Shown here: piece by piece, positions 33,579 to 51,238 of the stretch
How positions within the stretch are numbered: position 1 is the stretch's first letter
How the letters are laid out: every line of letters starts with the position of its first letter
Assembly: GCF_036181745.1 (NCBI RefSeq)
Contig: NZ_CP108080.1
Location: 248,001 to 312,000 of the forward strand
Source of the DNA: Streptomyces sp. NBC_00259
Lineage (GTDB): Bacteria; Actinomycetota; Actinomycetes; Streptomycetales; Streptomycetaceae
Direction of reading: 5' to 3'
DNA: 64,000 nucleotides
Position numbers and translations under genes: made by a program
The notes under the pieces: model-generated
What the model was told of the DNA's origin: nothing
The model's database searches: none
Seen by the model: only the letters and a program-made list of their open reading frames with translations

Positions 33579-33740
33579 GCTGGGGCTCCTTGGTCTGGGG
33601 ACGGGTGAGGTGCGTGGGCCGCCGCGCAGGGCGTTCTCCCCTCCGCGCCGCCTGCGCCCTGCGACGCGGGGACCCCCACTTCCCGCCGGGAGCCCGCCAC
33701 CGGACCCCGGCACGCTCTGAGGGAGGCGGGGAGGGGCAGT

Positions 33741-34541: not shown

Positions 34542-34602
34542 GACCGTCCTCCCGTCTCAAGACCTAGAACAGGTTGCAGGAGCCCGGGGTCCAGTTCAAT
34601 AG

Positions 34603-34626
34603 TTTTCTGACAGTCAGTCAGATTTC
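34603..34626. promoter_or_regulatory. palindromic operator TTTTCTGA-N7-TCAGATTT between crotonase and FadD
   Basis: The core TCTGA-CAGTCAG-TCAGA (34606-34622), extended as TCTGAC-N5-GTCAGA, is flanked by TTT on the left and TTTC on the right. It lies 65 bases from the crotonase start and 96 bases from the FadD start. The same core and flanks recur at 51215-51238. It is the size of a TetR-type site; no TetR gene is in the window. Confidence 0.6.
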
Positions 34627-34717
34627 TTCTGCGGGACCCCTTCCCAGTTGCGAGCGGCGGCGCTCTAATGACCGCTCCGAGGCAGTTGCGCCGTACGGGC
34701 CGGGGTCAGGAGGAACG

Positions 34718-36361
34718 GTGGAGTACAACCTTGCCGACCTGTTCGAGTCGGTCGTCGACGTGGTCCCGGACCGCGAGGCGCTCGTGTACGTCGACCATCC
34801 CGGTACGGGCGCGGAGCGCCGGCTGACGTACGCGGAGCTGGACGCCGCCGCGAACCGGATCGCCCACCATCTGATCGACGCCGGGCTGCGGCCGGGCGAG
34901 CACCTCGGGCTGCACCTCTACAACGGCGTCGAGTACCTGCAGACGGTCCTCGGCTGTCTCAAGGCGCGCGTCGTCCCGGTCAATGTGAACTACCGCTATG
35001 TGGAGGAGGAGCTGGTCTACCTCTACCGCGACGCGGATCTCGCCGCTCTCGTCTTCGACGCCGAGTTCACGGAGCGGGTCGCGGCAGCGCTGCCGCAGAC
35101 GGAGAAGCTCCGGCACCTCGTGCGGGTGGGAACGCCGGAGGAGGGCACGGCGGCCCTCGACTGCACGGAGTTCAGCGATGCCGAGGCGGCGGCTTCGCCG
35201 GAGCGCGGCTTCGTGCCCCGCTCGGCGGACGACCAGTTCATCATCTACACGGGCGGCACCACCGGGATGCCCAAGGGCGTGATGTGGCGCCAGGAGGACC
35301 TCTTCTTCGCCGGGCTCGGCGGTGGCGCGCCGACCGGTGAGCCGGTGAAGCGGCCGGAGGAGATCGCCGAGCGGGTCGCGGCCGGCGGCGACGGCATCAC
35401 CTTCTTCCCCACTCCCCCGCTGATGCACGGGACGTCGACGCTCACCTCGTTCATCGGCTTCAACTTCGGCCAGCGGGTGGTGCTGCACCGCAAGTACGTG
35501 CCCGAGGAGGTGCTGCGGACGATCGAGCGGGAGCGGGTGACGTCGGTGTCGCTGGTGGGCGACGCGATGCTGCGGCCGCTGATCGACGCGCTCAACGGGC
35601 CGCTGAAGGGCGCGGACCTGTCCTCGATGTTCAGTGTGTCGTCGTCCGGCGCGATCATGTCCGAGACGGTGCGCGACCAGTTCAGGGCGCTGGCGCCGAA
35701 CGTGATGCTGCTGGACAACTTCGGCTCGTCGGAGTCCGGCTTCAACGGTACGGCGACGGACGACTCGGGGCAGGACAACGGGTTCCGGGTGCGCGTCAAC
35801 GGCCGTACGCAGGTGGTCGATCCGGCCACGTTCGAGCCGGTCGCCGTCGGGGAGCCGGGCCGTATCGCCCAGCGTGGCCATGTGCCGCTCGGCTACTACA
35901 ACGACCCGGTGAAGACCGCCGAGACGTTCTTCCGCAAGGGTGACGAGCGGTGGGTGCTGCTCGGCGACATGGCGACGGTCGACGAGGAGGGTGTCGTCAC
36001 CGTCCTCGGCCGTGGCTCGCAGTGCATCAACACCGGCGGCGAGAAGGTCTATCCGGAGGAGGTCGAGCAGGCGCTCAAGGCCCATCCCGACGTGTACGAC
36101 GCGCTGGTCGCGGGGGTCCCCGACGAGAAGTGGGGCAACCACGTGGCGGCCGTGGTACAGCTGCGGCAGGGCGCGGCGGCCCTCGATCTGGAGTCCGTGC
36201 AGGAGCACTGCCGGGCCCGGCTTGCCGGGTACAAGATCCCCCGGCAGCTGGTCATCGCACCGGCGATCCAGCGCTCGCCCAGCGGCAAGGCGGACTACCG
36301 GTGGGCGCGGTCGGTGGCGGCGGCGGACGACGGGGGTCAGGTCAGTACAGCCAGGACCTGA
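34718..36361 (+). CDS. acyl-CoA synthetase (FadD, steroid-type FadD19-like)
   Basis: The 547-residue adenylate-forming ligase has the P-loop YTGGTTGMPKGVMW (about residue 185), the A5-type motif NFGSSESGF, A7 VLLGDMATVDEEGVVTVLGRGSQ, and GGEKVYPEEVEQAL. The catalytic-Lys region is SPSGKADYRW. The GGTTGMPKGVMW variant and the motif CINTGGEKVYPEEVE resemble mycobacterial FadD19/FadD17-type ligases for steroid side chains or other branched acids; this is by memory. It activates a carboxylic acid with ATP and CoA. GTG at 34718 has CAGGAGG about five bases upstream. Its divergent partner is the crotonase gene. Confidence 0.92.
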   Translation: MEYNLADLFESVVDVVPDREALVYVDHPGTGAERRLTYAELDAAANRIAHHLIDAGLRPGEHLGLHLYNGVEYLQTVLGCLKARVVPVNVNYRYVEEELVYLYRDADLAALVFDAEFTERVAAALPQTEKLRHLVRVGTPEEGTAALDCTEFSDAEAAASPERGFVPRSADDQFIIYTGGTTGMPKGVMWRQEDLFFAGLGGGAPTGEPVKRPEEIAERVAAGGDGITFFPTPPLMHGTSTLTSFIGFNFGQRVVLHRKYVPEEVLRTIERERVTSVSLVGDAMLRPLIDALNGPLKGADLSSMFSVSSSGAIMSETVRDQFRALAPNVMLLDNFGSSESGFNGTATDDSGQDNGFRVRVNGRTQVVDPATFEPVAVGEPGRIAQRGHVPLGYYNDPVKTAETFFRKGDERWVLLGDMATVDEEGVVTVLGRGSQCINTGGEKVYPEEVEQALKAHPDVYDALVAGVPDEKWGNHVAAVVQLRQGAAALDLESVQEHCRARLAGYKIPRQLVIAPAIQRSPSGKADYRWARSVAAADDGGQVSTART

Positions 36362-36403
36362 CGGGCCCCGGTTCCGCGGAATGCGCCGGTCGCCAACTGT
36401 TGA

Positions 36404-36415
36404 GCACGATCGTGC
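36404..36415. promoter_or_regulatory. palindrome upstream of the aminotransferase
   Basis: GCACGATCGTGC is a perfect 12-base palindrome, 52 bases before the aminotransferase start. It overlaps a TTGAGC (36400) that could be a -35 box. This is a candidate operator. Confidence 0.35.
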
Positions 36416-36467
36416 GGATGTACGTATTCCCCGGCAGGCAGCAGCCAGCCACCTCCGGAGGAACCTC

Positions 36468-37778
36468 ATGGCCGAAGCCGGCAGCAACGTCACCGCGCTG
36501 TTCCGTGCGTCGACGGCGCACAGCCCCTCGTACGCGGCGCTGAGCCGGGCGGGCGGGGACGCACAGGCGATCACCGACTTCTGCATCCCCTGCAACCCGT
36601 ACTTCCCGACGCCCGAGATGTTCGAAGAGCTGGGCGGCCGGCTGCGGGACATCCTCACGTACTACCCGAGCAGCGCGGACACCATCACCACCGAGCTGTG
36701 TTCCGTCCTCGGGCTCAATCCGCAGACGGTCGCCATGGGGAACGGGTCCACCGAGCTGATCACCTGGATCGATCATCTGCTGGTGCGGGAGTCGCTGGCG
36801 GTGCCGGTGCCGACGTTCGGGCGGTGGACGGACCAGCCGATGGAGACGGGCAAGCGGGTCGACATGTTCCCGCTGCCGGAGTCCGCCGGCTTCGCCCTCG
36901 ATCCGGCGTCGTTCGTGGACTTCGTCCGCTCGAGAGGGTCGCGTACGGCCGTCATCTGCAACCCGAACAACCCGGACGGCGGTCTGCTGCCGCGGCACGG
37001 CGTGCTCGCGCTCCTGGACCAGCTCCAGGATCTGGACCTGGTCGTCGTGGACGAGTCGTTCCTGGAGTTCGCTGACGCGGAGGCGGATTCCAGCGTCGTC
37101 GGCGAGGCCGTGCTGCGTCCCAACACGATCGTGCTGCGCAGTCTGGGCAAGAACTTCGGGTTGCACGGGGTGCGTTTCGGCTATCTCGTCGCCAATCCGG
37201 GACTCGCGGGGCGGGTGCGGGCGGCGTTGCCGAAGTGGAACCTCAACTCCTTCGCCGAGACCGTGGTGTTCATGCTGAAGGAGCACCGGCTGGAGTACGC
37301 GCACAGTCTGCGTCTGGTGCAGCGCGACCGGCAGGAGATGATCTGGCAGCTGAGCCGGCTGCCGGGGCTGACGGTGTACCCGTCGCAGGGCAACTTCCTG
37401 TACGTACGGCTGCCGGAGGGGGCCGACGGGGCGGTGCTTCGCGACCGGCTGCTGGAGGAGTACGGCGTGCTGGTGCGGGAGTGCGGCAACAAGATCGGCA
37501 GCTCCAGCCGGTATCTGCGGCTCGTGGTGCGGCCGCAGGCGGATGTGCAGCGGCTGGTGGCGGGGCTGGAGGAGACGCTGTACGCGACGCACCACGGCCC
37601 GGGCCGGAGCTACGGCCAGGGCCAGAACCAGAACCACGGCCAGAGTCAGGGCCAGGGCCAGGAGTACGACCGGATTCCGGCCCTCGAACCGGCCCGGAGT
37701 CCCGGGCCCATGCCGGCGTACGCGCTGCCGTACGGGTCCGGAACCGCGGCGGTGGACCGGCTCGTCAGGGGCGCGTGA
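36468..37778 (+). CDS. PLP-dependent aminotransferase, HisC/CobD-like, with Gln/Gly-rich tail
   Basis: The 436-residue fold-type I PLP enzyme has NPNNPDGG (residues 165-172) in the cofactor region, VVVDESFLEF with the PLP-ring Asp, the Schiff-base Lys in LRSLGKNFGLHGVRFGY (about residue 230), and the phosphate/carboxylate Arg in SSRYLRLVVR. It is closest to histidinol-phosphate or CobD-type aminotransferases, but no pathway neighbours are present. After residue 370 a 65-residue tail rich in Gly and Gln (GQGQNQNHGQSQGQGQ) is added, encoded by hexamer-like repeats. GGAGGAAC is four bases before ATG 36468, a strong site. Confidence 0.88.
   Translation: MAEAGSNVTALFRASTAHSPSYAALSRAGGDAQAITDFCIPCNPYFPTPEMFEELGGRLRDILTYYPSSADTITTELCSVLGLNPQTVAMGNGSTELITWIDHLLVRESLAVPVPTFGRWTDQPMETGKRVDMFPLPESAGFALDPASFVDFVRSRGSRTAVICNPNNPDGGLLPRHGVLALLDQLQDLDLVVVDESFLEFADAEADSSVVGEAVLRPNTIVLRSLGKNFGLHGVRFGYLVANPGLAGRVRAALPKWNLNSFAETVVFMLKEHRLEYAHSLRLVQRDRQEMIWQLSRLPGLTVYPSQGNFLYVRLPEGADGAVLRDRLLEEYGVLVRECGNKIGSSSRYLRLVVRPQADVQRLVAGLEETLYATHHGPGRSYGQGQNQNHGQSQGQGQEYDRIPALEPARSPGPMPAYALPYGSGTAAVDRLVRGA
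37613..37662 (+). repeat. imperfect GGCCAG/CAG hexamer repeat inside the aminotransferase gene
   Basis: Repeated GGCCAG, AACCAG and GTCAGG units encode the Gly/Gln/Asn-rich part of the tail. The pattern is consistent with slippage expansion of a linker. Confidence 0.7.
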
Positions 37779-37858
37779 GCCGCTCGGCGCCCGCTCGCTC
37801 GAGGCGTCCGCCGCGAAACTCCGTTGCCGCCGGTGCGGGCCGGTGGTGGAGTGGCCGG

Positions 37859-38692
37859 ATGGATCACGATGCGGTGCTGGCCCTGTACGACCGGCAGATG
37901 CGGCGGGACGCCCCCGCGGACGGGCCGGGGGCACGGGTCGAGCGCGTGGGTGGCGTGGTGCGGCAGACCGCCGGTGACCACGGCTGGAACGGCGTCCTCT
38001 GGTCCGGCCTGGACGCGACGACGGCGGACGCGGCCATCACGGAGCAGGTGCGCCATTTCGCCTCGCGCGGCTGCGAGTTCGAGTGGAAGCTGTACGGGCA
38101 TGACCGGCCCTTCGATCTCGCGGACCGGCTGCTCGCTGCCGGGCTCGTGCCGGAGCCCGCCGAGACGCTGCTGGTCGCGCCCACGGACGGGGTCGCGGCC
38201 GAGTCCGCGCACGGGCGTGCGGACGGCCGCCGGGACGGGCCGGAGCTGCCTACCGGTGTGGAGTTCCACCGGGTCACCGACGCCGCCGGCGTGGATCTCC
38301 TCGCCCGGGTCCACGAGGAGGCCTTCGGCACGGACTCCTCCCGGCTGAGGGCACAGCTGCTCGCACAGCTGACCGCCGGCCCGGACGGTCTCGTCGCCGT
38401 CGTCGCCATGGCCGGCGACGTGCCGGTGAGTTCGTCCCGACTGGAACTCCCGCCGGGACGACGTGACTTCGCGGGTCTGTGGGGCGGGGGCACGGTGCCG
38501 CGGTGGCGCGGCCGCGGCCTGTACCGCGCCTCGGTGGCCCACCGGGCCCGCATCGCGGCGGAACGCGGCTACCGCTACCTCCAGGTGGACGCGATGCCGT
38601 CGAGCCGGCCGATCCTGGAGCGCCTCGGCTTCACCGCGCTCAGCACGACGACTCCGTACGTCCACCGGCCGGGAGCACCGGGCCCGCACTGA
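37859..38692 (+). CDS. GNAT family N-acetyltransferase
   Basis: The 277-residue protein has a divergent N-terminal half and a clear GNAT domain in the second half. The strand pair VAVVAMAGDVPVSSSRLELPP is followed by the acetyl-CoA loop RWRGRGLYRASVAHRARIAAERGY (about residues 220-243, consensus R-x2-G-x-G/A) and YLQVDAMPSSRPILERLGF. The N-terminal half is likely a degenerate second GNAT unit. The acceptor is unknown. It is 80 bases after the aminotransferase gene in the same direction, and converges on a lipoprotein gene 20 bases after its stop. Confidence 0.85.
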   Translation: MDHDAVLALYDRQMRRDAPADGPGARVERVGGVVRQTAGDHGWNGVLWSGLDATTADAAITEQVRHFASRGCEFEWKLYGHDRPFDLADRLLAAGLVPEPAETLLVAPTDGVAAESAHGRADGRRDGPELPTGVEFHRVTDAAGVDLLARVHEEAFGTDSSRLRAQLLAQLTAGPDGLVAVVAMAGDVPVSSSRLELPPGRRDFAGLWGGGTVPRWRGRGLYRASVAHRARIAAERGYRYLQVDAMPSSRPILERLGFTALSTTTPYVHRPGAPGPH

Positions 38693-38712
38693 CGGCGGCG
38701 CGCCGCACCGGT

Positions 38713-39570
38713 TCAGCCGGCCGGCCGCAGCCAGCCGTGCACGCGGACCACCCCGGCGCCGAACCGCCGGTCCATGTCCCGCCGCAGCTCGTCGGTGGCG
38801 ACGTAGGTCCTGATGCTCACGGCGTTGCCCACGACGTCGATGCTCGCGCCCAGGAGGTTGGGCACCGCCTTCACCACCCGCTCCCGCACCGTGCGCAGTT
38901 CGGCCTGCGAGCGCGCGGCGGTCGTCAGACAGAGGGCGCCGCCCCAGGTCTTGCGGATCTCGCGTTCGTGGCCGGCGAGGTCCCGGGTGAACCGCATGAC
39001 GAGGACGGTGCCGCCGCCTTCGGTGTCGATCCAGCCGCCGGCGAACTCCTTGTCCTCCTCCGCCGAGCGAAGGGCACGCTCGTAGTCCTCGGCTCCCGCC
39101 TTCGAGGGGTCCACGGCCTCACGGTCCCCCGCCGCCGCACGGCACGGGCTCGTGAAGTCGGGTGCCTGGAAGTCGCCTTCGGGAACCTCGCGCGTGCCGG
39201 AACCGGAAGGGGAGAGCCGCGCGGGTTCGGTGAGCGTGAAGCGGCTGCCGTCCCAGGTGCCGACGAGGTCGTACGTGCCCCAGGTCGTTCCCTGCTGGGA
39301 CTCCCGCTTGACCGCGCTCCACTTCCAGCCGACGACATCGGGGCCGCCGCACTGGGGCGGCAGGGACGTCCGGACCATCGAGCAGAGCTGCGGTCCGTGC
39401 GAGGCGCTCTCCAGGACGGTCGCCCGGACCTCGTAGCGCTGTGCGGAGGCGGAGGGCGATGTGGAGGCGGACGCCGACGGTGAGGGGGACGCCGTACTGC
39501 CGGGAGTCGCCTGCTGCCCGCAGGCGACGAGGAGGAGGAGTGCAGGAATCGCGACGATTCTCGGCTTCAT
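38713..39570 (-). CDS. lipoprotein of unknown function
   Basis: The 285-residue protein has a type II signal with the lipobox LLLLVAC near residue 17, followed by a Ser/Ala/Thr-rich linker to about residue 42. The mature part contains VGWKWSAVKRESQQGTTWGTYDLVGTWDG and later LCLTTAARSQAELRTVRERVVKAVPNLLG, an alpha/beta arrangement I do not recognise. It should be anchored to the outer face of the membrane. Two starts are possible: ATG 39570, which gives the shorter n-region typical of lipoproteins, and a GTG eight codons upstream. It stands alone. Confidence 0.8.
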   Translation of the reverse strand: MKPRIVAIPALLLLVACGQQATPGSTASPSPSASASTSPSASAQRYEVRATVLESASHGPQLCSMVRTSLPPQCGGPDVVGWKWSAVKRESQQGTTWGTYDLVGTWDGSRFTLTEPARLSPSGSGTREVPEGDFQAPDFTSPCRAAAGDREAVDPSKAGAEDYERALRSAEEDKEFAGGWIDTEGGGTVLVMRFTRDLAGHEREIRKTWGGALCLTTAARSQAELRTVRERVVKAVPNLLGASIDVVGNAVSIRTYVATDELRRDMDRRFGAGVVRVHGWLRPAG

Positions 39571-39662
39571 GCTCGCTGCGACGGTTGATGGCACGGTTCG
39601 GTTCCCGCCAGATCTGGCCGGTTTCCGCCCTGGCGCCGGCCGGTGCGGCGGCGATGGCGGGA

Positions 39663-40577
39663 TCAGTCCGTGGACAGTCCCGCCGCCGCCCCCGCCAGGG
39701 CGTCGAGGACCGGGCTGAGGAGCGGATGGGCCTCCGCGCCGCGGCGGACCGCCGCGAAGACGCGCCGGGTGGCGGCCGGCCCCGCGACGGGGAGGACGAC
39801 GGTGTCCTTCAGCTCCATGCCGCGCAGCGCCGAGCGCGGGACGAGGGCCACTCCGGCGCCCGCACCGGCGAGGGCCACCACGGCGCGGAAGTCGTCGGAG
39901 GTGTGGGTCAGCCGGGGCTGGAAGCCCGCGAGTTCGCAGGCCAGCAGCATGACGTCGTGGCAGGGGTTGCCGGGGTTCTGGCCGATCCAGTCGCTGTCGG
40001 CCAGTTCGGCGAGCTCCACCCGGCTGCCGCCGGCGAGCGGGTGGCCGTGGTGCAGGACCGCGTCGAAGGGTTCCGCGTAGAGCGGGACACGGGCGAGTCG
40101 CCGGTCGTTCTCGCGGGGCGCCCCGCGGTACTCGACGGCGAGGGCCAGATCGGCCTCGCCGTCGAGGACCATCGGCAGGCTCTCGTCGCCCTCGGCGTCG
40201 CGGACGCGGACCCGGATGCCGGGGTGCTCGCCGGCCAGGCGTCCGATCGCGGGGGCGAGGACCTCGGCGATACCGGTCGCGAAGGCGGCGACCGTGACCT
40301 CGCCGGCCGCGCCGCCCGCGTAGGCGGCGAGCTCCGCCTCGGCCCGTTCCAGCTGCGAGAGCACCGCGTGCGCATGGGCGAGGAGGATCTCGCCGGCCGC
40401 GGTCAGCCGTACGCCGCGGCCGCTGCGGATGAGCAGGGTGTGGCCGGACTCCTGCTCCAGGGCGGCGAGCTGCTGGGAGACGGCGGAGGGGGTCAGATAC
40501 AGCGCTGCGGCCGCGGCGGTCACCGTACGGTGGTCCGCCACGGCACGCAGTATGCGGAGCCTGCGGGGGTCGATCAC
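39663..40577 (-). CDS. LysR-family transcriptional regulator, coupled to kbl
   Basis: The 304-residue regulator has the LysR winged helix ([58 protein letters not shown]) and a LysR-substrate domain with [26 protein letters not shown] and the hinge strand [16 protein letters not shown]. It is probably a sensor for a threonine-pathway compound. It starts with GTG inside the stop codon of kbl (GTGA at 40577-40574), so it is translated as the third gene of the tdh-kbl unit instead of from its own divergent promoter, which is unusual for LysR genes. Confidence 0.9.
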
Positions 40578-41773
40578 CCGGCCATTGTCGCCCGGGCGTC
40601 GACGAACGCCGCCACCGCCCGCTCCACGTCCTCGCGGGAGTGCGCGGCGGAGAGCTGGACGCGGATGCGGGCCTTCCCCATCGGGACGACCGGGTACGAG
40701 AAGCCGATCACGTACACGCCCCGCTCCAGCAGCAGCTCGGCCATCCGGCCCGCCTCGGCCGCGTCGCCGATCATGACGGGCGCGATCGCGTGGTCGCCGG
40801 GCAGGATCTCGAAGCCCGCCTCGGTCATCTTCGTGCGGAAGAGGGCGGTGTTCGCGGCGAGCTTCTCCCGCAGGTCACCGGCGGACTCCAGCAGGTCGAG
40901 GACCGTGAGGGAGGCGGCGGCGATGACCGGGGCGAGGGAGTTCGAGAACAGGTACGGGCGGGACCGCTGGCGCAGCAGCTCCACGATCTCGGCGCGGGCG
41001 GCGACGTAGCCGCCGGAGGCGCCGCCGAGGGCCTTGCCGAGGGTGCCGGTGATGATGTCGACGCGGTCCATGACGCCGTGCAGCTCGGGGGTGCCGCGGC
41101 CGCCGGGGCCGACGAAGCCGACGGCGTGCGAGTCGTCGACCATGACCATGGCGTCGTAGCGGTCGGCGAGGTCGCAGATCTCGCGCAGGGGCGCCACGTA
41201 GCCGTCCATGGAGAAGACGCCGTCGGTGACGATGAGCTTGCGCCGGGCGCCGCCCTCGGTGGCCTCCTTGAGCCTGGTCTCCAGCTCGGCCATGTCCCGG
41301 TTGGCGTAGCGGAAGCGGGCCGCCTTGGAGAGGCGGATGCCGTCGATGATGCTGGCGTGGTTGAGGGAATCGGAGATGACGGCGTCCTCGGGTCCGAGGA
41401 GGGTCTCGAAGACTCCGCCGTTGGCGTCGAAGCAGGAGGAGTAGAGGATCGTGTCCTCCTGGCCGAGGAACGCGGAGAGGCGACGCTCCAGCTCCTTGTG
41501 GACCTCCTGGGTGCCGCAGATGAAGCGGACGGAGGCCATGCCGTAGCCCCAGCGGTCCAGGGCCTCCTTGCCCGCGGCGACGACGTCGGGGTGGTCGGCG
41601 AGGCCGAGGTAGTTGTTGGCGCAGAAGTTCAGCACGTCACCGGCCGCACCGCCGGAGGTGACGGCCACGGAGGCCGACTGGGGGGTGCCGATGACGCGCT
41701 CGGGCTTGTGCAGGCCGGCGGCGCGGATCTCGTCGAGGGTGGCGCGGAGGTCGTCGCGGACGGACGCGTACAT
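40574..41773 (-). CDS. kbl: glycine C-acetyltransferase (2-amino-3-ketobutyrate CoA ligase)
   Basis: This 399-residue PLP enzyme is of the alpha-oxoamine synthase family. Landmarks are [15 protein letters not shown], the substrate loop [36 protein letters not shown] with the cofactor Asp, and the Schiff-base lysine in [15 protein letters not shown]. It splits 2-amino-3-ketobutyrate with CoA into glycine and acetyl-CoA, the second step of threonine breakdown. The gene lies 44 bases after tdh, which supplies its substrate, and overlaps the LysR gene. Length matches the E. coli enzyme (398 residues). Confidence 0.96.
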
Positions 41774-41817
41774 GGGGTTCTCTCCCTTGAGGGGTGGCTG
41801 CGGGCCGGGCCGGGGAC

Positions 41818-42846
41818 TCAGGCGGTCCAGTCGAGGATGATCTTGCCGCTGCGGGCGGTGGCGGCCTCGTCGAAGGCCGCGTCGAAGTCCTGGTAGCCGT
41901 AGCTGCCGGTGATCACGGGAGCGAGGTCGAGTCCGCCTTCGAGGAGGACCGTCATCGCGTACCAGGTCTCGAACATCTCCCGGCCGTAGATGCCCTTGAT
42001 CGTGATCATCGAGGTGACGATCCTGGACCAGTCGACGGCGAACTCCTGGGCGGGCAGACCCAGCATCGCGATCCGGCCACCGTGCGTCATGTTGTCGATC
42101 ATGTCGCGGACGGCTTCGGGGCGGCCGGACATCTCCAGGCCGACGTCGAAGCCCTCCTTGAGGCCGAGGGTGCGCTGTGCCGAGGCGATGTCGGTCTCGG
42201 CGACGTTGACGGCCAGCGTCGCGCCCACCTTGCGGGCCAGTTCGAGGCGCGGCTCGCTCACGTCGGTGATCACGACGTTGCGGGCGCCCGCGTGCCGGGC
42301 GACGGCCGCCGCCATGACCCCGATCGGGCCCGCGCCGGTGATCAGCACGTCCTCGCCGACGAGCGGGAAGGACAGCGCGGTGTGCACGGCGTTGCCGAAC
42401 GGGTCGAAGATCGCGGCGATGTCGAGGTCGACCTCCGTGCGGTGCACCCACACGTTCGACGCGGGCAGCGACACGTACTCGGCGAACGCTCCGTCGCGGC
42501 CGACGCCGAGCCCGACGGTGCTGCGGCACAGATGACGGCGGCCCGCGAGACAGTTGCGGCACTTGCCGCAGACGAGGTGCCCCTCGCCGCTGACCAGGTC
42601 GCCCACGGCGACGTCCTGGACGTCCGCGCCGACGGCCGCGACCTCGCCGACGAACTCGTGGCCCGCGACCAGAGGGGTGCTGATGGTCTGCTGGGCCCAG
42701 CCGTCCCATGAGCGGATGTGGAGATCGGTGCCGCAGATGCCGGTGCGGAGGACCTTGATCAGCACATCGCCCGGGCCGTATTCGGGCTCGGGGACGTCCA
42801 TGAGCCACAGCCCGGGCTCGGCGTGCTGCTTGACGAGTGCCTTCAT
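41818..42846 (-). CDS. tdh: L-threonine 3-dehydrogenase
   Basis: The 342-residue medium-chain dehydrogenase has the Tdh signature [34 protein letters not shown]. It carries the catalytic zinc Cys/His (Cys about 38, His about 63) and the structural zinc cysteines in [15 protein letters not shown]. The NAD turn is [19 protein letters not shown] with the acidic residue in VITDVSE. It oxidises L-threonine to 2-amino-3-ketobutyrate. It is first in the tdh-kbl-LysR unit. Its upstream 131 bases contain the A-rich stretch CTTAAGAAAACC (read leftward, 42949-42960), a plausible regulator site. Confidence 0.96.
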
Positions 42847-42977
42847 GGTGCGGCTCCAGGCATTGCGGGCGGGCGGACCAGGCAGGACGGCCGGGTCGGC
42901 GGACGACGTGGACCAATCTGCCGAGGCTCGGGCGTTCAGTCCATCGAGGTTTTCTTAAGCGGGCCGACAGCAGAGCT

Positions 42978-43850
42978 TCACACAGGCCCCGCCGCGGCGC
43001 CGGTGACGGCGGAGTCGAGGAAGCCGGTGACGGCGCGGGTGAAGGCGCCGGGGTCGTCCAGCCACGGGTAGTGGCCGGCGCCGCGCTGCACCACGGCCGT
43101 GCCGTGGCGGAACAGCGCGGCTGTCTTCCCGGCGCGTGCGGGGGTGGGCCCGCCGTCGTACTCACCGGCGAGGACGAGCACCGGCGCCTCCAGAGCGGCG
43201 AGCGCCTTCGCGGTCGTCGGCGGGTCGAAGGCGCCGTCGGCGAAGTAGGCGCTTCTCGCCTGCGGGTTGGACTGGTGGGCGTCGTCGGCCGCGTGCTCTC
43301 GCGCGGCCGCGTCCCAGCGCCCGTACATGAACGGCACGATGTCCGGCCAAAGGTCGTCGAGCTCGGCGCCGCCGAGGTAGGCCTCCCACGCCTGGTGGCC
43401 TGCCTCGTACCAGGGCTCGCCCTTGCGCAGCGCGACGGCGTCCCGCCAGTCCTGTTCGGTGGCCTCGACGCCGATGGCGCGGGTGCCGGGGGTGACGAGG
43501 GTCAGGGAGCGCACCCGCTCGGGGTGGGCGGCGGCGTGGAGCAGGGCGAGATTGCCGGCGGCCGAGTGGGCGAGGATGTCGGCACGCTCCAGTCCGAGGT
43601 GCTCACGCAGCGCCTCGACGTCGTCGACCTGCCGGTCGCAGCGGTACGTGCCCGGGTCGTCCGGTACGGCGGAGTCGCCGGTGCCGCGCAGGTCGAGCCG
43701 TATGAGCGTGCGACCGGCGGTGAGGCCGCCGAGCTCGCCGAGGTAGGCCGAGGCCCGCATGGGACCGCCCGGCAGACAGATCAGCGGCTCCCCCTCCCCC
43801 TCCGCGTGGCAGGCGAGCGAGGTGCCGTCGTATGCGCTGAAGGTCGGCAT
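42978..43850 (-). CDS. alpha/beta hydrolase (proline-iminopeptidase-like)
   Basis: The 290-residue alpha/beta hydrolase starts with [27 protein letters not shown]. The HGG-like oxyanion region is [17 protein letters not shown] is the typical loop, and the nucleophile elbow is LAHSAAGN (Ser about 107). The catalytic Asp is in GEYDGG and the His is in GAGHYPW. This is the size and order of proline iminopeptidases and related esterases; the substrate is open. GGAGAGG precedes ATG 43850 by eight bases. It lies in the tdh direction but 131 bases away, so it is probably separate. Confidence 0.9.
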
Positions 43851-43940
43851 ACCGCGATCCTCTCCGGGCGTCCGCGATCCCGCCAACGGGCTGATGTCTT
43901 GACGCCCGGCCGGGCGGCTGGATTACTGATCCCGGACAGT

Positions 43941-43958
43941 CGACCGAATGATCGGTCG
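43941..43958. promoter_or_regulatory. TetR-type operator upstream of paaK
   Basis: CGACCGA-ATGA-TCGGTCG is a perfect 7-base inverted repeat, 32 bases before the PaaK start. ACCGA-N4-TCGGT palindromes are typical of TetR regulators of acyl-CoA and phenylacetate genes (PaaR type, from memory). The hydrolase gene on the other side starts 90 bases away. Confidence 0.55.
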
Positions 43959-43990
43959 CCCGGTTTGCGAGTGACACGGGAGTCATCCGT

Positions 43991-45307
43991 ATGACGGATC
44001 GGACGGACCTGACGCATCTGACGGACCCGGCGGAGCTGCTGGACGCCGGGGAGCGCCTCGGCCGCGAGGAGCTCCGGGCCCTCCAGTTGGAGCGGCTGCG
44101 GGCGACCCTGCGCCATGCGTACGAGAACGTCGGCTTCTACCGGGAGTCGTTCGACAAGGCAGGGGTGCGGCCCGAGGACTGCCGCTCGCTCGACGATCTC
44201 GCCCGCTTCCCGTTCACGGCGAAGTCGGACCTGCGCGACCACTACCCGTTCGGGATGTTCGCCGTGGAGCAGTCGAGGGTGCGGCGCATCCACGCCTCCA
44301 GCGGGACGACCGGGCGGCCCACGGTCGTCGGCTACACCGACGGTGACCTGGACACCTGGGCGGACGTGGTGGCCCGCTCCATCCGCGCGGCCGGCGGACG
44401 GCCCGGCCACAAGGTTCATGTGGCGTACGGCTACGGGCTGTTCACGGGTGGTCTCGGCGCGCACTACGGGGCGGAGCGGCTCGGCTGCACGGTCATCCCG
44501 GCGTCGGGCGGGATGACGGCGCGGCAGGTGCAGCTGATCCAGGACTTCCGGCCCGAGATCATCATGGTGACGCCGTCGTACATGCTGACGCTGCTCGACG
44601 AGTTCGAACGCCAGGGCGTCGATCCCCGGTCCACCTCGCTGAAGGTCGGGATATTCGGCGCGGAGCCGTGGACCGAGGAGATGCGCCGCGAGATCGAGGA
44701 GCGCTTCGCGATCGACGCGGTCGACATCTACGGGCTGTCCGAGGTGATGGGCCCGGGTGTGGCGCAGGAGTGCGTCGAGACCAAGGACGGACTGCACATC
44801 TGGGAGGACCACTTCTATCCCGAGGTCGTGGACCCGTTCACCGGTGAGGTGCTGCCGGACGGGGAGGAGGGCGAGCTGGTCTTCACCTCGCTCACCAAGG
44901 AGGCCATGCCGGTCATCCGCTACCGGACCCGGGACCTGACCCGGCTGCTGCCCGGGACCGCGCGGGTGTTCCGGCGGATGGAGAAGGTCACCGGACGCAG
45001 CGACGACATGATCATTCTGCGCGGGGTGAACCTGTTCCCCACCCAGATCGAGGAGATCGTGCTGCGGACGCCGGGTGTCGCCCCGCACTTCCAGCTGAAG
45101 CTGACGCGCGAGGGCCGGATGGACGCGCTCACGGTACGGGCCGAGGCGCGCGAGGGGGTGCCTGCCGAGCAGCGGGAGGCCGCGGCCGGGCTGATCGCGG
45201 CGGCGGTGAAGGACGGGATCGGGGTGTCGGTGACGGTGGAGGTGGTCGACCCGGAGACGCTGGAGCGCTCGGTCGGCAAGATCAAGCGGATCGTCGACCT
45301 CCGGTAG
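43991..45307 (+). CDS. paaK: phenylacetate-CoA ligase
   Basis: The 438-residue adenylate-forming ligase has the PaaK-specific ATP loop ASSGTTGRPTVVGYT (about residue 100) and the motif IYGLSEVMGPGVAQECVETKDGLHIWEDHF. It also has RTRDLTRLLPG and the C-terminal GRSDDMIILRGVNLFPTQIEE. It activates phenylacetate to phenylacetyl-CoA with ATP. None of the paaABCDE ring-opening genes is in the window, so this is an isolated copy. It may supply an aryl-acyl-CoA to neighbouring enzymes. The ATG at 43991 has GGGAG about eight bases upstream. Confidence 0.95.
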   Translation: MTDRTDLTHLTDPAELLDAGERLGREELRALQLERLRATLRHAYENVGFYRESFDKAGVRPEDCRSLDDLARFPFTAKSDLRDHYPFGMFAVEQSRVRRIHASSGTTGRPTVVGYTDGDLDTWADVVARSIRAAGGRPGHKVHVAYGYGLFTGGLGAHYGAERLGCTVIPASGGMTARQVQLIQDFRPEIIMVTPSYMLTLLDEFERQGVDPRSTSLKVGIFGAEPWTEEMRREIEERFAIDAVDIYGLSEVMGPGVAQECVETKDGLHIWEDHFYPEVVDPFTGEVLPDGEEGELVFTSLTKEAMPVIRYRTRDLTRLLPGTARVFRRMEKVTGRSDDMIILRGVNLFPTQIEEIVLRTPGVAPHFQLKLTREGRMDALTVRAEAREGVPAEQREAAAGLIAAAVKDGIGVSVTVEVVDPETLERSVGKIKRIVDLR

Positions 45308-45477
45308 AACGGCCACGTCCCGAGAACGACCTCGGCCCACCACGGGTTCGGCGGCCGGTTCCCGGCGGCCCCGGGCGCCGGCCGGCCGACCTGATGCCGG
45401 AGCGGCACCGCCGACAGGATAGGCTCGGCAGCTGCTCCTGGTCCTCGGGAGCTGAACTCGCTTGAGGAAAGGGCTGG

Positions 45478-45660
45478 TTGGCTGTGTGGCAGGAGGCGCC
45501 GATCTACGACCGGCTCGTCACGGAACGCGGTGACGTGCCCGCGCAGGTGCGCCGGGAGGCCGAGCACGCGCTGCGGACTCTGGAGCAGGTCATGCGCTCC
45601 GGGCTGCCCCCGATCGGCATGCATCCGCAGCAGACGCAGCCGTACCCGACCGGCCCCTGA
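45478..45660 (+). CDS. small conserved Streptomyces protein (MAVWQEAPIYDRL type)
   Basis: The 60-residue protein has a TTG start and AGGAAAGG about six bases upstream. The opening MAVWQEAPIYDRLVTERGDVPAQVR is one I recall from a small conserved Streptomyces protein family, followed by a helix EAEHALRTLEQVMRSGLPP and a Pro/Gln-rich end. No function is known to me. It lies between PaaK and a convergent FadD. An in-frame GTG at 45484 is an alternative start. Confidence 0.65.
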   Translation: MAVWQEAPIYDRLVTERGDVPAQVRREAEHALRTLEQVMRSGLPPIGMHPQQTQPYPTGP

Positions 45661-45731
45661 CGGCACGTCCCTCGCGGTGAGATCCGCGGTGGGACCCGCG
45701 GTCAGGACCGGACCCGGCCGGCCCCTCGCGC

Positions 45732-47234
45732 TCAGGCGAGCCTGTCGCGCAGCTCCCGCTTGAGGATCTTCCCGCTCGCGTTGCGCGGCAGCTCGTCGAC
45801 GAACAGCACCCGCTTGGGGGCCTTGAACCCGGCCAGGTCCTTGCGGGCGTGGGCGAGGAGTTCCTCCTCCGTCACGCCGTCACGGGCGACGACGACCGCG
45901 GTGACGGCCTCGATCCAGCGGTCGTCGGGGAGGCCGATGACGGCGGCCTCGGCGACGGACGGGTGCGTGTAGAGGACGTCCTCGACCTGACGGGAGGCCA
46001 CCAGCACTCCCCCGGAGTTGATGACGTCCTTCACCCGGTCGACGATCGTGTAGTAGCCGTCGCCGTCGCGGACCGCGAGGTCACCCGAGCGGAACCAGCC
46101 TCTGCGGAAGGCGTCCCGGGTCTCCTCCGGCTTGTCCCAGTACCCCTCGCACAGCTGCGGTGACCGGTAGACGATCTCGCCGGCCGTCCCGTCGGCGACG
46201 TCCTCGCCGTCCTCGTCGACGACCCTCGCCTCGACGAAGCGCACGGGCCGGCCGCAGGAGTCCATCCGGCCCTCGTGCTCCTTGGGGCCGAGGACCGTGG
46301 CGAGCGGCCCGATCTCGCTCTGGCCGAAGCAGTTGTAGAAGGCGAGGTGCGGCAGGCGCTCGCGCAGTCGTTCCAGTACGGGCACGGGCATGATCGACGC
46401 CCCGTAGTACGCCTTGCGCAGGGAGCCCAGGTCGCGGGTGGCGAAGTCCGGGTGGTGGGACAGGCCGATCCAGACCGTGGGCGGTGCGAAGAGGCTGTCG
46501 GCGCGGCCCGCCTCGACCAGATCGAAGATCTGTGCGGCGTCGGGCGCGTCGAGGATGGTGTTCTCCGCGCCGACGGCCAGGTAGGGCAGCAGGAACACAT
46601 GCATCTGGGCGGAGTGGTACAGCGGCAGGGAGTGGACCGGCTTGTCGCTCTCGTCCAGGTCCAGGGCGGTGACGGCGCTGACGTACTCGTGGACGAGCGC
46701 CCGGTGCGTCATCATCGCGCCCTTCGGCTGGGCGGTGGTGCCGGAGGTGTACAGCAGCTGTACGAGCTCACGGGCGTCGCGGTCGGCGTCGAAGTCCTCC
46801 GGCTCGGCGAGCGCGTCCAGCAGCGAGTCGCCGGTGTCGCGCAGGGCCCGTACGGGGAAGCGGCCTGGCACCCGGTCACCGAGTGCGGGATCGGCGAGGA
46901 CGAGTGAACTGCCGGACTGGTCGAGGATGTACGCGAGGTCGTCGCCCGTCAGGTTGTGGTTGACGGGCACATGGACGAGACCCGCGCGAGAGCAGGCGAG
47001 GAAGGCGATCAGGTAGGCGTCGGAGTTGTGGCCGTAGGCGGCGACGCGGTCGAACGGGCCCAGTCCGTGCCGCTCGCTCAGTACGGCGGCCGCGGTGGAG
47101 ACGGCGGTGTCCAGTTCGGCGTAGGTCCAGGACCGGTCGCCGTACCTCACGGCGGTGCGGTCGGGGACGCGCTGGGCGGTGCGGCGCAGGACGCCGTCGA
47201 CCGTGCTGTGGACGAGTCGCTCCAAGGCTGCCAT
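45732..47234 (-). CDS. acyl-CoA synthetase (FadD family)
   Basis: The 500-residue adenylate-forming enzyme has the P-loop LLYTSGTTAQPKGAMMTH, the A5 motif YNCFGQSEIGP, the A7 motif SGDLAVRDGDGYYTIVDRVKD with GGVLVASRQVEDVL, and the A10 lysine in NASGKILKREL. It belongs to the long- or medium-chain acid ligase group; the acid is unknown. It is a separate leftward gene, 107 bases after the antiporter gene. The ATG at 47234 starts directly before the first helix. No operator like that at 34603 is found upstream. Confidence 0.93.
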   Translation of the reverse strand: MAALERLVHSTVDGVLRRTAQRVPDRTAVRYGDRSWTYAELDTAVSTAAAVLSERHGLGPFDRVAAYGHNSDAYLIAFLACSRAGLVHVPVNHNLTGDDLAYILDQSGSSLVLADPALGDRVPGRFPVRALRDTGDSLLDALAEPEDFDADRDARELVQLLYTSGTTAQPKGAMMTHRALVHEYVSAVTALDLDESDKPVHSLPLYHSAQMHVFLLPYLAVGAENTILDAPDAAQIFDLVEAGRADSLFAPPTVWIGLSHHPDFATRDLGSLRKAYYGASIMPVPVLERLRERLPHLAFYNCFGQSEIGPLATVLGPKEHEGRMDSCGRPVRFVEARVVDEDGEDVADGTAGEIVYRSPQLCEGYWDKPEETRDAFRRGWFRSGDLAVRDGDGYYTIVDRVKDVINSGGVLVASRQVEDVLYTHPSVAEAAVIGLPDDRWIEAVTAVVVARDGVTEEELLAHARKDLAGFKAPKRVLFVDELPRNASGKILKRELRDRLA

Positions 47235-47341
47235 GGCTGGATCCTGGGCCGTGCGGTCGCGCGGGTCAAGGAGCGCGTTCGTCGCGGGGCTCGGGCCGCT
47301 GGACGGCCGATCGGCTTCCGGGGCTGAACGACGGGAAGCCG

Positions 47342-48442
47342 TCAGGGACTGAACGACAGGAACACGAAGGCGGCGAACAGCACCAGATGCACGCCGCCCT
47401 GCAGGAGAGTGGCGCGCCCCGGCACCACCGTGAGGGCGCTGACCACGGCGGTGAGAGTGAGCAGCACTATGTGGGTGGCGTCCTCGCCCAGGATCAGCGC
47501 CCCGGGCAGCCAGATCGAGGCGAGCGCGATCGCCGGGATCGTCAGACCGATGCTCGCGATCGCGGAGCCGTAGGCCAGGTTGAGGCTGGTCTGCATACGG
47601 TCCCGGCGCGCGGCGCGCAGGGCGGCGAGGGTCTCCGGCATCAGCACCATCAGGGCGATCACGACCCCGACGACGGACTTCGGCAGCCCTGCCGACTCCA
47701 CCCCGCCCTCGATGGTCGGCGAGACGAGTTTGGCGTCGCCGACGACGGCGACGAGCGCCACGAACAGCAGCGCGACGCTCCACCAGGTCCGGCGGGCACC
47801 GGGCGGCGGGGCGTGTTCGTCGGGGTCGCTCCGCTGCCCCTCGCGGGCGACGGGCAGGAAGTAGTCGCGGTGCCTGACGGTCTGTACGGCGACGAAGAGC
47901 CCGTAGAGGCACAGCGAGGAGACGGCGGCGAACGTCAGCTGGCTGGAGGTGAACTCGGGGCCCGGCCGGCTGGTGGTGAAGGTGGGCAGCACCAGCGTCA
48001 TGGTGGCGAGGGTGCACACGGTCGCGAGCGCCCCGCCCGAGCCCTCGGCGTGGAAGACGGCGACGCGGTTGCGCACCGCGGCCACCAGCAGGGACAGCCC
48101 GACGATGCCGTTGCAGGTGATCATCACGGCGGCGAACACGGTGTCCCTGGCGTACGTGGACGCCTTCGCTCCGCCGCCGGCCATCAGGGTGACGATGAGA
48201 CCGACCTCGATGACGGTCACGGCGACGGCGAGGACCAGCGAGCCGAACGGCTCGCCCACCCTGTGGGCGATGACCTCGGCGTGGTGCACCGCCGCCAGCA
48301 CCGCGCCGACCAGGCACAGACCGACGAGGGTCACGGCGAGGCCGGGGAGATGGCGGCCCCAGCCGAGGACGAGCGCGATCGCGGCGACCACCGGCACCCA
48401 GGTGGTCCACTGAGCCCCCAGCCCTGTCGTGCCGGTCTTCAT
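47342..48442 (-). CDS. calcium/proton antiporter (ChaA-like, CaCA family)
   Basis: The 366-residue membrane protein has about eleven helices and matches the length of E. coli ChaA. Two copies of the CaCA repeat are visible. The first is HRVGEPFGSLVLAVAVTVIEVGLI (GEPFG motif with ion-binding Glu). The second is VIALMVLMPETLAALRAARRDRMQTSLNLAYGSAIASIGLT. A cytoplasmic loop near residues 205-220 is Pro/Arg-rich. It should exchange Ca2+ or Na+/K+ for protons across the membrane. The start is uncertain: ATG 48442 gives the family length, while ATG 48502 adds 20 residues. Confidence 0.9.
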   Translation of the reverse strand: MKTGTTGLGAQWTTWVPVVAAIALVLGWGRHLPGLAVTLVGLCLVGAVLAAVHHAEVIAHRVGEPFGSLVLAVAVTVIEVGLIVTLMAGGGAKASTYARDTVFAAVMITCNGIVGLSLLVAAVRNRVAVFHAEGSGGALATVCTLATMTLVLPTFTTSRPGPEFTSSQLTFAAVSSLCLYGLFVAVQTVRHRDYFLPVAREGQRSDPDEHAPPPGARRTWWSVALLFVALVAVVGDAKLVSPTIEGGVESAGLPKSVVGVVIALMVLMPETLAALRAARRDRMQTSLNLAYGSAIASIGLTIPAIALASIWLPGALILGEDATHIVLLTLTAVVSALTVVPGRATLLQGGVHLVLFAAFVFLSFSP

Positions 48443-48518
48443 GGCGGCCACGCTGCCAGGCCGCCGGGCGGGGCGCGCGGGGTGCTGGGCCAACGGAGCC
48501 ATGGCGGCCCCCACCGGG

Positions 48519-50069
48519 TCAGAGCGGGCGGTCGTGTCCCGCCCAGTAGGGGTCCCGCAACCGGCGCTTGTAGAGCTTGCCGTTGGGGTCGCGCGGCATG
48601 GTGTCGATGAAGTCGACGCTCTTGGGGCGCTTGTAGCCCGCGAGGTGCTGCTCGCAGTGGGCGAGGATCGCCGCGGCGAGGTCGGGGCCGGGGACCCGGC
48701 CGTCGGCCGGTTCCACGACGGCCTTGACCTCCTCGCCCCAGTCGGCGTGCGGGATGCCGAAGGCGGCGGCGTCGGCGACCGCGGGGTGGCTGAGGAGCGC
48801 GGCCTCGATCTCGGCGGGGTAGATGTTCACTCCGCCCGAGATGATCATGTCGATCTTGCGGTCGCGCAGGAACAGATAGCCGTCCTCGTCGAGGACACCG
48901 AGGTCACCGACGGTGAAGAAGTCGCCGATGCGGTTCTTCCGCGTCTTGGCCTCGTCCTTGTGGTAGCTGAAGCCGCCGGTCGACATCTTCATGTAGACGG
49001 TGCCCAGTTCGCCGGGCGGCAGGCGGTTGCCGTCGTCGTCGAAGACGGCGAGTTCGCTGATCGGCCAGGCCCTGCCGACCGTGCCGGGCTTCTTCAGCCA
49101 GTCCTCGGCGGTGGCGAAGGCACCTCCGCCCTCGCTCGCCGCGTAGTACTCCTCGACGCAGTGGCCCCACCACTCGATCATGGCCCGCTTCACATGGTCG
49201 GGGCAGGGTGCGGCGCCGTGGATGGCGTGCCGCATCGAGCCGACGTCGTACCGGCCGCGGACGTCCTCGGGCAGCGACAGCAGCCGGTGGAACTGGGTCG
49301 GGACCATATGGGTGTGGGTGCAGTCGTACGTGTCGATCATTCGCAGCATCTCCTCGGGCGCCCATTTGTCCATCAGCACCAGCCGGTGGCCGATGTGCAG
49401 GGACGCGCCCGCGAACTGGAGCACGGCGGTGTGGTAGAGCGGCGAGCAGACCAGATGGACGTTGTCGTCGAAGGGCCTGATGCCGAAGATGCCGAGGAAG
49501 CCGCCCAGATAGGTCTCCTCGGGGAGCTTTCCTGGCAGCGGGCGGCGGATGCCCCGGGGCCTGCCCGTGGTGCCGGAGGTGTAGTTCATGACCCAGCCGA
49601 GGGTGCGCTCTCCGGGCACCGTGTCCGGCTGTCCTTCGAGGAGTTCGGCGTACGTGCGGAAGCCCTCGACCGGGCCGACGGCGTAGCGGTGGGTGGGCGG
49701 CAGGTCCGCCTCGTCGGCCGCGGCCCTCGCGGCGCCGGCGAAGCGCTCGTGGGCGATGAGGACCTTGGCTCCGGAGTCGGCGACGATCCAGGCGATCTCC
49801 GGTCCCACGAGGTGGTGGTTGACGGGTACGAGATAGAACCCGGCCTGGGATGCGGCGAGGTACGCGGTGAAGAACTCGACGCCGTTGGGGAGGACGACGG
49901 CGAAGGCGTCGCCCCGCCGCAGTCCTGCGGCGCGCAGCCCGTGCACGAGGCGGTTGACGTCGGCGTGCAGCCTTCCGGCGGTCCACTCCTCGCCGTCGGG
50001 CGCGATCAGGACCGTACGGCCGGGGTCGGCCGCGGCCTGGGCCCAGAATCCGTTCGGGGACTGATTCAT
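48519..50069 (-). CDS. acyl-CoA synthetase, coupled to a nitronate-monooxygenase-like gene
   Basis: The 516-residue adenylate-forming ligase has the P-loop MNYTSGTTGRPRGIRRPLPG, the A5 region YYAASEGGGAF, TVGDLGVLDEDGYLFLRDRKIDMI and GGVNIYPAEIEAALLSHPAV. The catalytic-Lys segment is PNGKLYKRRLRD. The variant GTTGRPRGIRR resembles mycobacterial FadD4-like ligases (memory). It starts inside the stop of the upstream flavoprotein gene (ATGA at 50069-50066), so both are co-translated and probably act in one pathway. Substrate unknown. Confidence 0.92.
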   Translation of the reverse strand: MNQSPNGFWAQAAADPGRTVLIAPDGEEWTAGRLHADVNRLVHGLRAAGLRRGDAFAVVLPNGVEFFTAYLAASQAGFYLVPVNHHLVGPEIAWIVADSGAKVLIAHERFAGAARAAADEADLPPTHRYAVGPVEGFRTYAELLEGQPDTVPGERTLGWVMNYTSGTTGRPRGIRRPLPGKLPEETYLGGFLGIFGIRPFDDNVHLVCSPLYHTAVLQFAGASLHIGHRLVLMDKWAPEEMLRMIDTYDCTHTHMVPTQFHRLLSLPEDVRGRYDVGSMRHAIHGAAPCPDHVKRAMIEWWGHCVEEYYAASEGGGAFATAEDWLKKPGTVGRAWPISELAVFDDDGNRLPPGELGTVYMKMSTGGFSYHKDEAKTRKNRIGDFFTVGDLGVLDEDGYLFLRDRKIDMIISGGVNIYPAEIEAALLSHPAVADAAAFGIPHADWGEEVKAVVEPADGRVPGPDLAAAILAHCEQHLAGYKRPKSVDFIDTMPRDPNGKLYKRRLRDPYWAGHDRPL

Positions 50070-51175
50070 GCCTGGCTCCGTCCGGCGATGCGGTTGATGC
50101 GGTCGACAGCGCGTTCGAAGCCGCGGGTGAGGTCGTCGAAGACCTGCTGGACACTGCGTTCGGCGTTCATCCGGCCGACGATCTGGCCGACGGGCGTGCC
50201 GAGCAGCGGTTCGATCTCGTGCTTCTGGATGCGGGAGACGGCGTCGGCGACGAGGAGGCCCTGGAGCGGCATGGGCAGGGTGCCGGGGCCGCTGGGGTCG
50301 TCCCAGGCATCGGTCCACTCGGTGCGCAGTTGCCGGGCGGGCTTCCCGGTCAGGGCGCGCGAGCGGACGGTGTCGCCGGAACCCGCGGCGAGGAGTTTCC
50401 CGGTGAGGGCGCGGGAGTGGAGGTCGGCCTCGGTGGTGGTGAGCCAGACCGAGCCGAGCCAGACGCCCTGGGCGCCGAGGGCGAGTCCGGCGGCCATCTG
50501 TTCACCGCTGCCGATGCCCCCGGCGGCGAGTACGGGCAGCGGGCCCACGGCGTCGACGACTTCGGGGGTGAGCACCATGGAGGCGATCTCGCCGGTGTGG
50601 CCGCCCGCCTCGTATCCCTGGGCGACGACGATGTCGATGCCCGCCTCGGCGTGCCGGCGGGCGTGCTTGGCGCTGCCGGCGAGGGCGGCGACGAGGACGC
50701 CGCGGTCGTGGGCGCGGCTGATGACGTCGGCGGGCGGGGAGCCGAGGGCGTTGGCGAGGAGCTTGATCGGGTAGTCGAAGGCGACGTCGAGCTGGCTGCG
50801 CGCGACCTGTTCCATCCAGCCGGTGATCCGCCAGCCGGACGCCTCACCCTCCGGCATCGCGGGTACGCCGTGCTTGGCGAGGGTCTCCTCGACGAAGCGG
50901 CGGTGTCCTTCGGGGATCATCGCCTCGACATCGGCTTCGGAGACGCCCTCGACCTTCTTGGCGGGCATCACGACGTCGAGGCCGTACGGCTTCCCGCCGG
51001 TGTGCTCCTGCATCCAGTCGAGATCGCGCGCGAGATCGCCGGGAGCGGTGTAGCGCACCGCGCCGAGGACGCCGAAGCCGCCCGCTCTGCTGATGGCGGC
51101 GGCGACCGCGGGGAACGGCGTGAAGCCGAAGATGGCGTGCTCGACTCCCAGTTTCTTGCTCAGCTCCGTCTCCAT
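50066..51175 (-). CDS. nitronate monooxygenase-like flavoprotein (2-nitropropane dioxygenase family)
   Basis: The 369-residue TIM-barrel flavoprotein has FGFTPFPAVAAAISRAGGFGVLGAVRY at the start. The FMN phosphate region is VAQGYEAGGHTGE and PVLAAGGIGSGEQMAAGLALGAQGVWLGSVWL. The motif QGYEAGGHTG is shared by this family. Members coupled to acyl-CoA genes, such as mycobacterial IpdC, act on CoA thioesters rather than nitroalkanes, so the nitronate name may be wrong here. Its promoter carries the same palindrome as crotonase/FadD. It is first in the two-gene unit with the acyl-CoA synthetase. Confidence 0.9.
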   Translation of the reverse strand: METELSKKLGVEHAIFGFTPFPAVAAAISRAGGFGVLGAVRYTAPGDLARDLDWMQEHTGGKPYGLDVVMPAKKVEGVSEADVEAMIPEGHRRFVEETLAKHGVPAMPEGEASGWRITGWMEQVARSQLDVAFDYPIKLLANALGSPPADVISRAHDRGVLVAALAGSAKHARRHAEAGIDIVVAQGYEAGGHTGEIASMVLTPEVVDAVGPLPVLAAGGIGSGEQMAAGLALGAQGVWLGSVWLTTTEADLHSRALTGKLLAAGSGDTVRSRALTGKPARQLRTEWTDAWDDPSGPGTLPMPLQGLLVADAVSRIQKHEIEPLLGTPVGQIVGRMNAERSVQQVFDDLTRGFERAVDRINRIAGRSQA

Positions 51176-51214
51176 GGGCGCAGGATGCCGCAGCGGAACG
51201 GCCGAGGGAAGAGA

Positions 51215-51238
51215 TTTTCTGATGCAGTGTCAGATTCT
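51215..51238. promoter_or_regulatory. palindromic operator TTTTCTGA-N7-TCAGATTC before the flavoprotein gene
   Basis: TCTGA-TGCAGTG-TCAGA (51218-51234) has the same arms, spacing and T-rich flanks as the site at 34603-34626. It lies 43 bases from the flavoprotein start and 91 bases from the divergent serine hydrolase start. It suggests control of both regions by one regulator. Confidence 0.6.

Follow-up and report, generated by a model that had tools for sequence, protein, structure and literature searches.

A conserved palindrome at acyl-CoA gene promoters of Streptomyces and a PF19352 TetR as its predicted regulator

Why does one palindrome stand at two separated acyl-CoA promoters of a Streptomyces genome, and which protein, if any, would bind it? 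The stretch of DNA analyzed here (the window) comprises 64 kb, C1:248001-312000 of an 8.16-Mb genome. The original prediction held that the two copies look like a selected operator and not a repeat, and that the two units probably form one regulon, possibly under an unlinked TetR-type regulator. Our findings uphold this model as a strong prediction from sequence comparison, and point to a candidate protein.

The two palindromes and their conservation

The genes and sites concerned are as follows.

30396..31649, minus strand: SCP2-type thiolase domain protein, behind the crotonase (PRK08313, 718 bits against a cut-off of 514)
32610..33713, minus strand: ChsH2-type OB-fold (DUF35) protein, downstream of the crotonase (PF01796, PF12172; weak match to ChsH2 6ok1)
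33741..34541, minus strand: crotonase, EchA19-type (PF00378; PRK07799 over cut-off; just under the cut-off of the steroid-specific EchA19 model, 378 against 400 bits)
34606..34622, no strand: palindrome 1, predicted TetR operator between crotonase and FadD (exact match, TCTGA-CAGTCAG-TCAGA)
34718..36361, plus strand: FadD, PRK07798-type acyl-CoA synthetase (751 bits against a cut-off of 543; conserved GTG start)
48519..50318, minus strand (longest ORF): FadD4-like acyl-CoA synthetase (PF00501, PF13193; below the cut-offs of the best-matching named models)
50066..51175, minus strand: nitronate-monooxygenase-like flavoprotein (PF03060; FabK model below cut-off)
51218..51234, no strand: palindrome 2, predicted TetR operator (exact match, TCTGA-TGCAGTG-TCAGA)
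51325..53127, plus strand: β-lactamase-fold protein, divergent from the flavoprotein across palindrome 2 (PF00144, MAM-type domain)

The same palindrome does stand at both promoters: the two copies are exact and their flanks agree, with TTT before and TT after. The refined site common to them is TCTGAC-N5-GTCAGA (17 bp), from which palindrome 2 departs by one arm base. That the palindrome occurs nowhere else in the window was borne out for exact copies; nine further matches have two mismatches each, a total of 11 against 12.8 expected by chance. Palindrome 1 lies 65 bp upstream of the crotonase and 96 bp upstream of the divergent FadD, whose start (GTG 34718) is conserved. Palindrome 2 lies 43 bp upstream of the flavoprotein, the distance first given. 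The flavoprotein/FadD unit at this site is as had been described, but the divergent β-lactamase-fold gene, 91 bp from the palindrome, had gone unmentioned. The FadD4-like synthetase probably begins downstream of its longest-ORF start, since the first 90 residues of that ORF match no domain.

At orthologous promoters the site is retained throughout the genus. The crotonase is present in 30 of 37 Streptomyces genomes, our own included, and the flavoprotein in the same 30; this joint presence was dropped as independent evidence because the genes adjoin in many genomes. One crotonase locus ends at a contig edge and was left out; the crotonase/FadD promoter keeps the site in all 29 readable loci, again with our own (25 exact, 4 with one mismatch). 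The flavoprotein promoter keeps it with at most one mismatch in 29 of 30, own locus included (23 exact, 6 with one mismatch, 1 with two). Similarly, among 80 named Streptomyces records, the best 80 of 501 crotonase relatives and some apparently the same strains as loci of the 37-genome set, the crotonase promoter retains the site in 79 (76 exact, 3 with one mismatch; the remaining locus has two). Ten different centres occur across these 80 loci, and reversed, N6 and N8 patterns in none of them. Motif loss at orthologous promoters, the outcome named beforehand as adverse, was thus not seen in Streptomyces (29/29, 29/30, 79/80), but in the sister family f3 the palindrome (up to two mismatches) is absent from all five crotonase promoters sampled out of 10 orthologs. 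Palindromes 1 and 2 are two instances of the same conserved promoter site.

The site across the genome

Genome-wide, exact TCTGA-N7-TCAGA occurs 14 times, against once for the reversed pattern, and exact TCTGAC-N5-GTCAGA six times against none; with up to two mismatches the refined site has 208 matches and its reversed control 63. A chance origin of the sites is ruled out by these reversed controls, as well as by the lack of reversed, N6 and N8 patterns at the crotonase loci. Not all exact matches are operators, however, since at least one of the 14 (C1:3816948-3816964; L011) resembles, in its sequence context, part of a tRNA gene and another falls inside a TetR coding region. Occurrences within coding sequence had been raised as a point against the prediction. 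Among 41 places in the genome with at most one mismatch, or an exact match in the shorter form, some are indeed coding or far from starts, and several of these are probably chance, but those belonging to catabolic genes fall at gene starts. Genes at these places were called by a simple longest-ORF caller, so some apparently coding sites really lie just inside over-long starts, palindrome 1 being an example.

The densest cluster of sites, 16 with up to two mismatches, occupies a 56-kb acyl-CoA catabolic block (C1:3377983-3434382) that encodes luciferase-like monooxygenases (LLM), amidohydrolase, SDR, thiolase, FadD, acyl-CoA dehydrogenase and crotonase types; one of the 16 is coding and the remainder are near gene starts. 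Elsewhere, a steroid 3-ketoacyl-CoA thiolase (NF005889, over cut-off), with a divergent P450, is found beside site 2296182. Other sites near starts accompany an acyl-CoA dehydrogenase/ChsH-like/Ltp-type set, a double-length acyl-CoA dehydrogenase with a lipid-transfer thiolase, an aldehyde dehydrogenase with a pyridine-nucleotide reductase, two LLM genes, a ferredoxin-reductase-type protein and an AMP-ligase. The site therefore recurs at gene starts of acyl-CoA catabolism, those of steroid side-chain type among them.

Three loci may be recorded individually. A palindrome stands at a start in L018:6317-8988 (steroid thiolase with divergent P450) and in L024:2925-7956 (Ltp-type thiolase, ChsH-like protein, acyl-CoA dehydrogenases), and a DDE-type transposase gene (L016:682-1773; C1:2249681-2250772) starts 97 bp from the one-mismatch site 2250869.

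A PF19352 TetR as candidate regulator

Inside the 56-kb block, unlinked to the window, lies a regulator gene.

C1:3399005-3399652, strand not given: TetR of family PF19352

It is present in 37/37 Streptomyces and 14/14 f3 genomes, with one close relative found per genome, and in G043, an f3 genome, an orthologous block likewise contains many sites together with the TetR, most paired genes being 57-78% identical. The site shares its neighborhood with this TetR and co-occurs with it across the class; beside at least 95 other TetR genes, it is the one for which co-occurrence was profiled. Among relatives, WCTGAC-N5-GTCAGW occurs 1-19 times in each of the 51 genomes with the PF19352 TetR, and in 1 of 10 without it, as a single site; control patterns reach 3. 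Among 216 genomes sampled from the class, at least four sites are seen in 25/40 with the TetR versus 1/176 without, where the sole exception is a 68% complete genome and genomes lacking the TetR are often smaller. Excluding our own genus and family f15, the figures are 7/17 versus 1/176 (p 8e-8, uncorrected for relatedness), the other 10 of the 17 having 0-3 sites. Within family f16, site counts are 6-12 in all seven genomes with the TetR and 0-1 in four of the five without it. Two relatives that retain the TetR, G010 and G029, have no more than 2 and 1 sites, respectively, and lack the block.

A TetR gene whose own promoter contains the site had been suggested as support, and here the evidence divides by lineage. 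In the distant families f14 and f16 the site stands at 8/8 loci in the promoter of an SDR-TetR operon, in which the SDR gene comes immediately before the PF19352 TetR (2 exact, 6 with one mismatch), and at three of the eight a further site with one mismatch lies 42-55 bp upstream of the TetR itself; in Streptomyces, however, no site with up to one mismatch lies within 1.5 kb of the gene at any of 30 loci (four cut short). The recognition segment ATFYQYF is identical in 23 of 24 aligned PF19352 homologs.

Next to the TetR lie a VOC gene and the gene of a Ser/Thr kinase that bears PQQ-type repeats. Since these neighbors fit SCO4421 and afsK (SCO4423) of S. coelicolor, the protein is, judged by synteny, likely the SCO4421 ortholog; SAV3818 may be another. 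Overall, we suggest, with a probability of about 0.68, that palindromes 1 and 2 are operators of this single unlinked TetR. In the sections of the SCO4421 report drawn on here, SCO4421 is described as a TetR near afsK that is reduced in a whiA mutant and active in spore chains (PMC3878966). Its deletion gave no visible phenotype, and those sections mention neither growth on steroids or lipids nor an operator or target (PMC3878966).

The KstR-type element and other readings of the site

A second element and a second TetR bear on the ownership of the palindrome.

34565..34578, no strand: KstR-type element TAGAACAGGTTGCA, predicted second operator, fitting TnnAACnnGTTnnA
C1:2278366-2279190 (L017:5367-6191), strand not given: KstR-like TetR (193 bits against the KstR equivalog cut-off of 280)

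The 14-bp consensus TnnAACnnGTTnnA is that given for the KstR operator in the consulted part of PMC1995591. The element begins 41 bases from the start of palindrome 1 and, with the first base of the consensus relaxed, is found at 79/80 of the named Streptomyces loci; near palindrome 2 no exact match to the consensus occurs within 150 bp, so that element and palindrome are both seen at site 1 and the palindrome only at site 2. The KstR-like protein has KstR among its best relatives of solved structure, and SCO2319 of S. coelicolor may be its ortholog.

Could this protein, or some other TetR, own the palindrome? Five sites with at most one mismatch (2250869-2296182) surround its gene, one about 1.9 kb off, the gene is found in 36/37 Streptomyces and 10/10 genomes of f3 genus g3, and the PF19352 gene of Streptomyces, as noted, has no site of its own. 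Yet the KstR-like gene is missing (E 1e-45) from G010, G040, G044, G045 and G047, which bear the PF19352 TetR and still have 2-10 sites, so it makes a poor owner; nor was a link of the kind seen between site and SDR operon observed for it, and beside palindrome 1 a separate KstR-type element is conserved. Weakened by the five site-bearing relatives and by this element, ownership by the KstR-like or another TetR seems unlikely. We give still less credence to two operator classes sharing the same arms, in which the TCTGACG...CGTCAGA sites of the block would serve the PF19352 TetR and the window sites a different protein. Such a split would suit the preference of the block sites for G/C next to the arms, the CA-N3-AG kept in the crotonase centre of most of the 80 named records, and palindrome 2, which reads TCTGATG; but arms and spacing are identical, centres are mixed at the side-chain-type sites 2256900, 2296182 and 3829780, and only one close PF19352 relative was found per genome.

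That the palindromes are repeats or terminators is very improbable. The idea draws on family f15, where similar palindromes are very numerous, 26-144 copies per genome, and where in a 318-kb sample of G135 three of five sites abut gene 3' ends (L316:6344, L318:9069, L320:17636). The f15 palindromes thus look like terminators or a repeat, not operators; their counts, at first taken to strengthen the co-occurrence, were dropped after that sample, and the family was left out of the conservative test for the same reason. Both window sites, however, lie between divergent starts, and their arms are conserved while the centres vary and the distance stays fixed, in keeping with the original view of a selected operator.

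Returning to the PF19352 TetR as the preferred regulator, a dimer would bind each palindrome and repress the target units, and it would be released by a ligand, which may be an acyl-CoA or an intermediate from the sterol side chain. The crotonase/FadD promoter would be under added control by the KstR-like protein through the KstR-type operator; given that operator 41 bases from palindrome 1, this promoter likely answers to two TetR regulators, the second being the protein at C1:2278366. In f3, an exact KstR-type element lies 44-76 bp upstream of the crotonase at three of the five loci sampled, and a KstR-type element lies 32-45 bp upstream of 3/3 flavoprotein homologs (3 of 10 sampled; 55-57% identity, orthology uncertain), while the flavoprotein homolog of G054, from another family, has one far away only. 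On the simplest reading, the operators changed between the Streptomyces family and f3, in a direction that these data do not set. We further propose, tentatively and as a possibility short of even odds, that the spore-expressed SCO4421-family TetR beside afsK acts as master repressor for the catabolism of sterol and acyl-CoA side chains, and that promoters controlled in the sister family via a KstR-type operator acquired the operator of this TetR in Streptomyces, tying the use of sterol-type lipids to both substrate and developmental state.

The regulon appears to be new, though of the known TetR-operator type; a literature search, mostly outside subscription journals, found no description of it. 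It links the PF19352 TetR to steroid side-chain-type genes and provides a testable operator and target list for a TetR that all 37 Streptomyces have and to whose likely ortholog in S. coelicolor no function has been assigned. A further point of interest is the promoter pair with different operators in the two sister families, an instance of regulatory rewiring open to bench tests.

Several known systems invite comparison. The two genes Rv3515c and Rv3516 are, we assume, fadD19 and echA19. As far as the consulted part of PMC1995591 goes, the KstR (Rv3574) regulon of Mycobacterium is likewise a TetR-type regulon of lipid and steroid genes, and a KstR site is listed between Rv3515c and Rv3516, a divergent FadD/crotonase pair as at palindrome 1; its 14-bp operator differs from the 17-bp palindrome. 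SCO4421, a TetR near afsK, matches our candidate in neighborhood (PMC3878966, sections cited above). The TetR SAV151 of S. avermitilis has sites with TCTGACA/TGTCAGA-like arms in the table of PMC10933834, a likeness of the listed sites alone, but these arms are spaced wider, in 22- and 26-base sites. Finally, the Nocardioides simplex motifs Lcin1 and Acin1/SRTF1 are, in the portions of PMC7593942 and PMC7807495 used here, also TetR-linked, promoter-predicted and tied to steroid catabolism, and Lcin1 differs in reading TCCCGGT[C/G]ACCGGGA.
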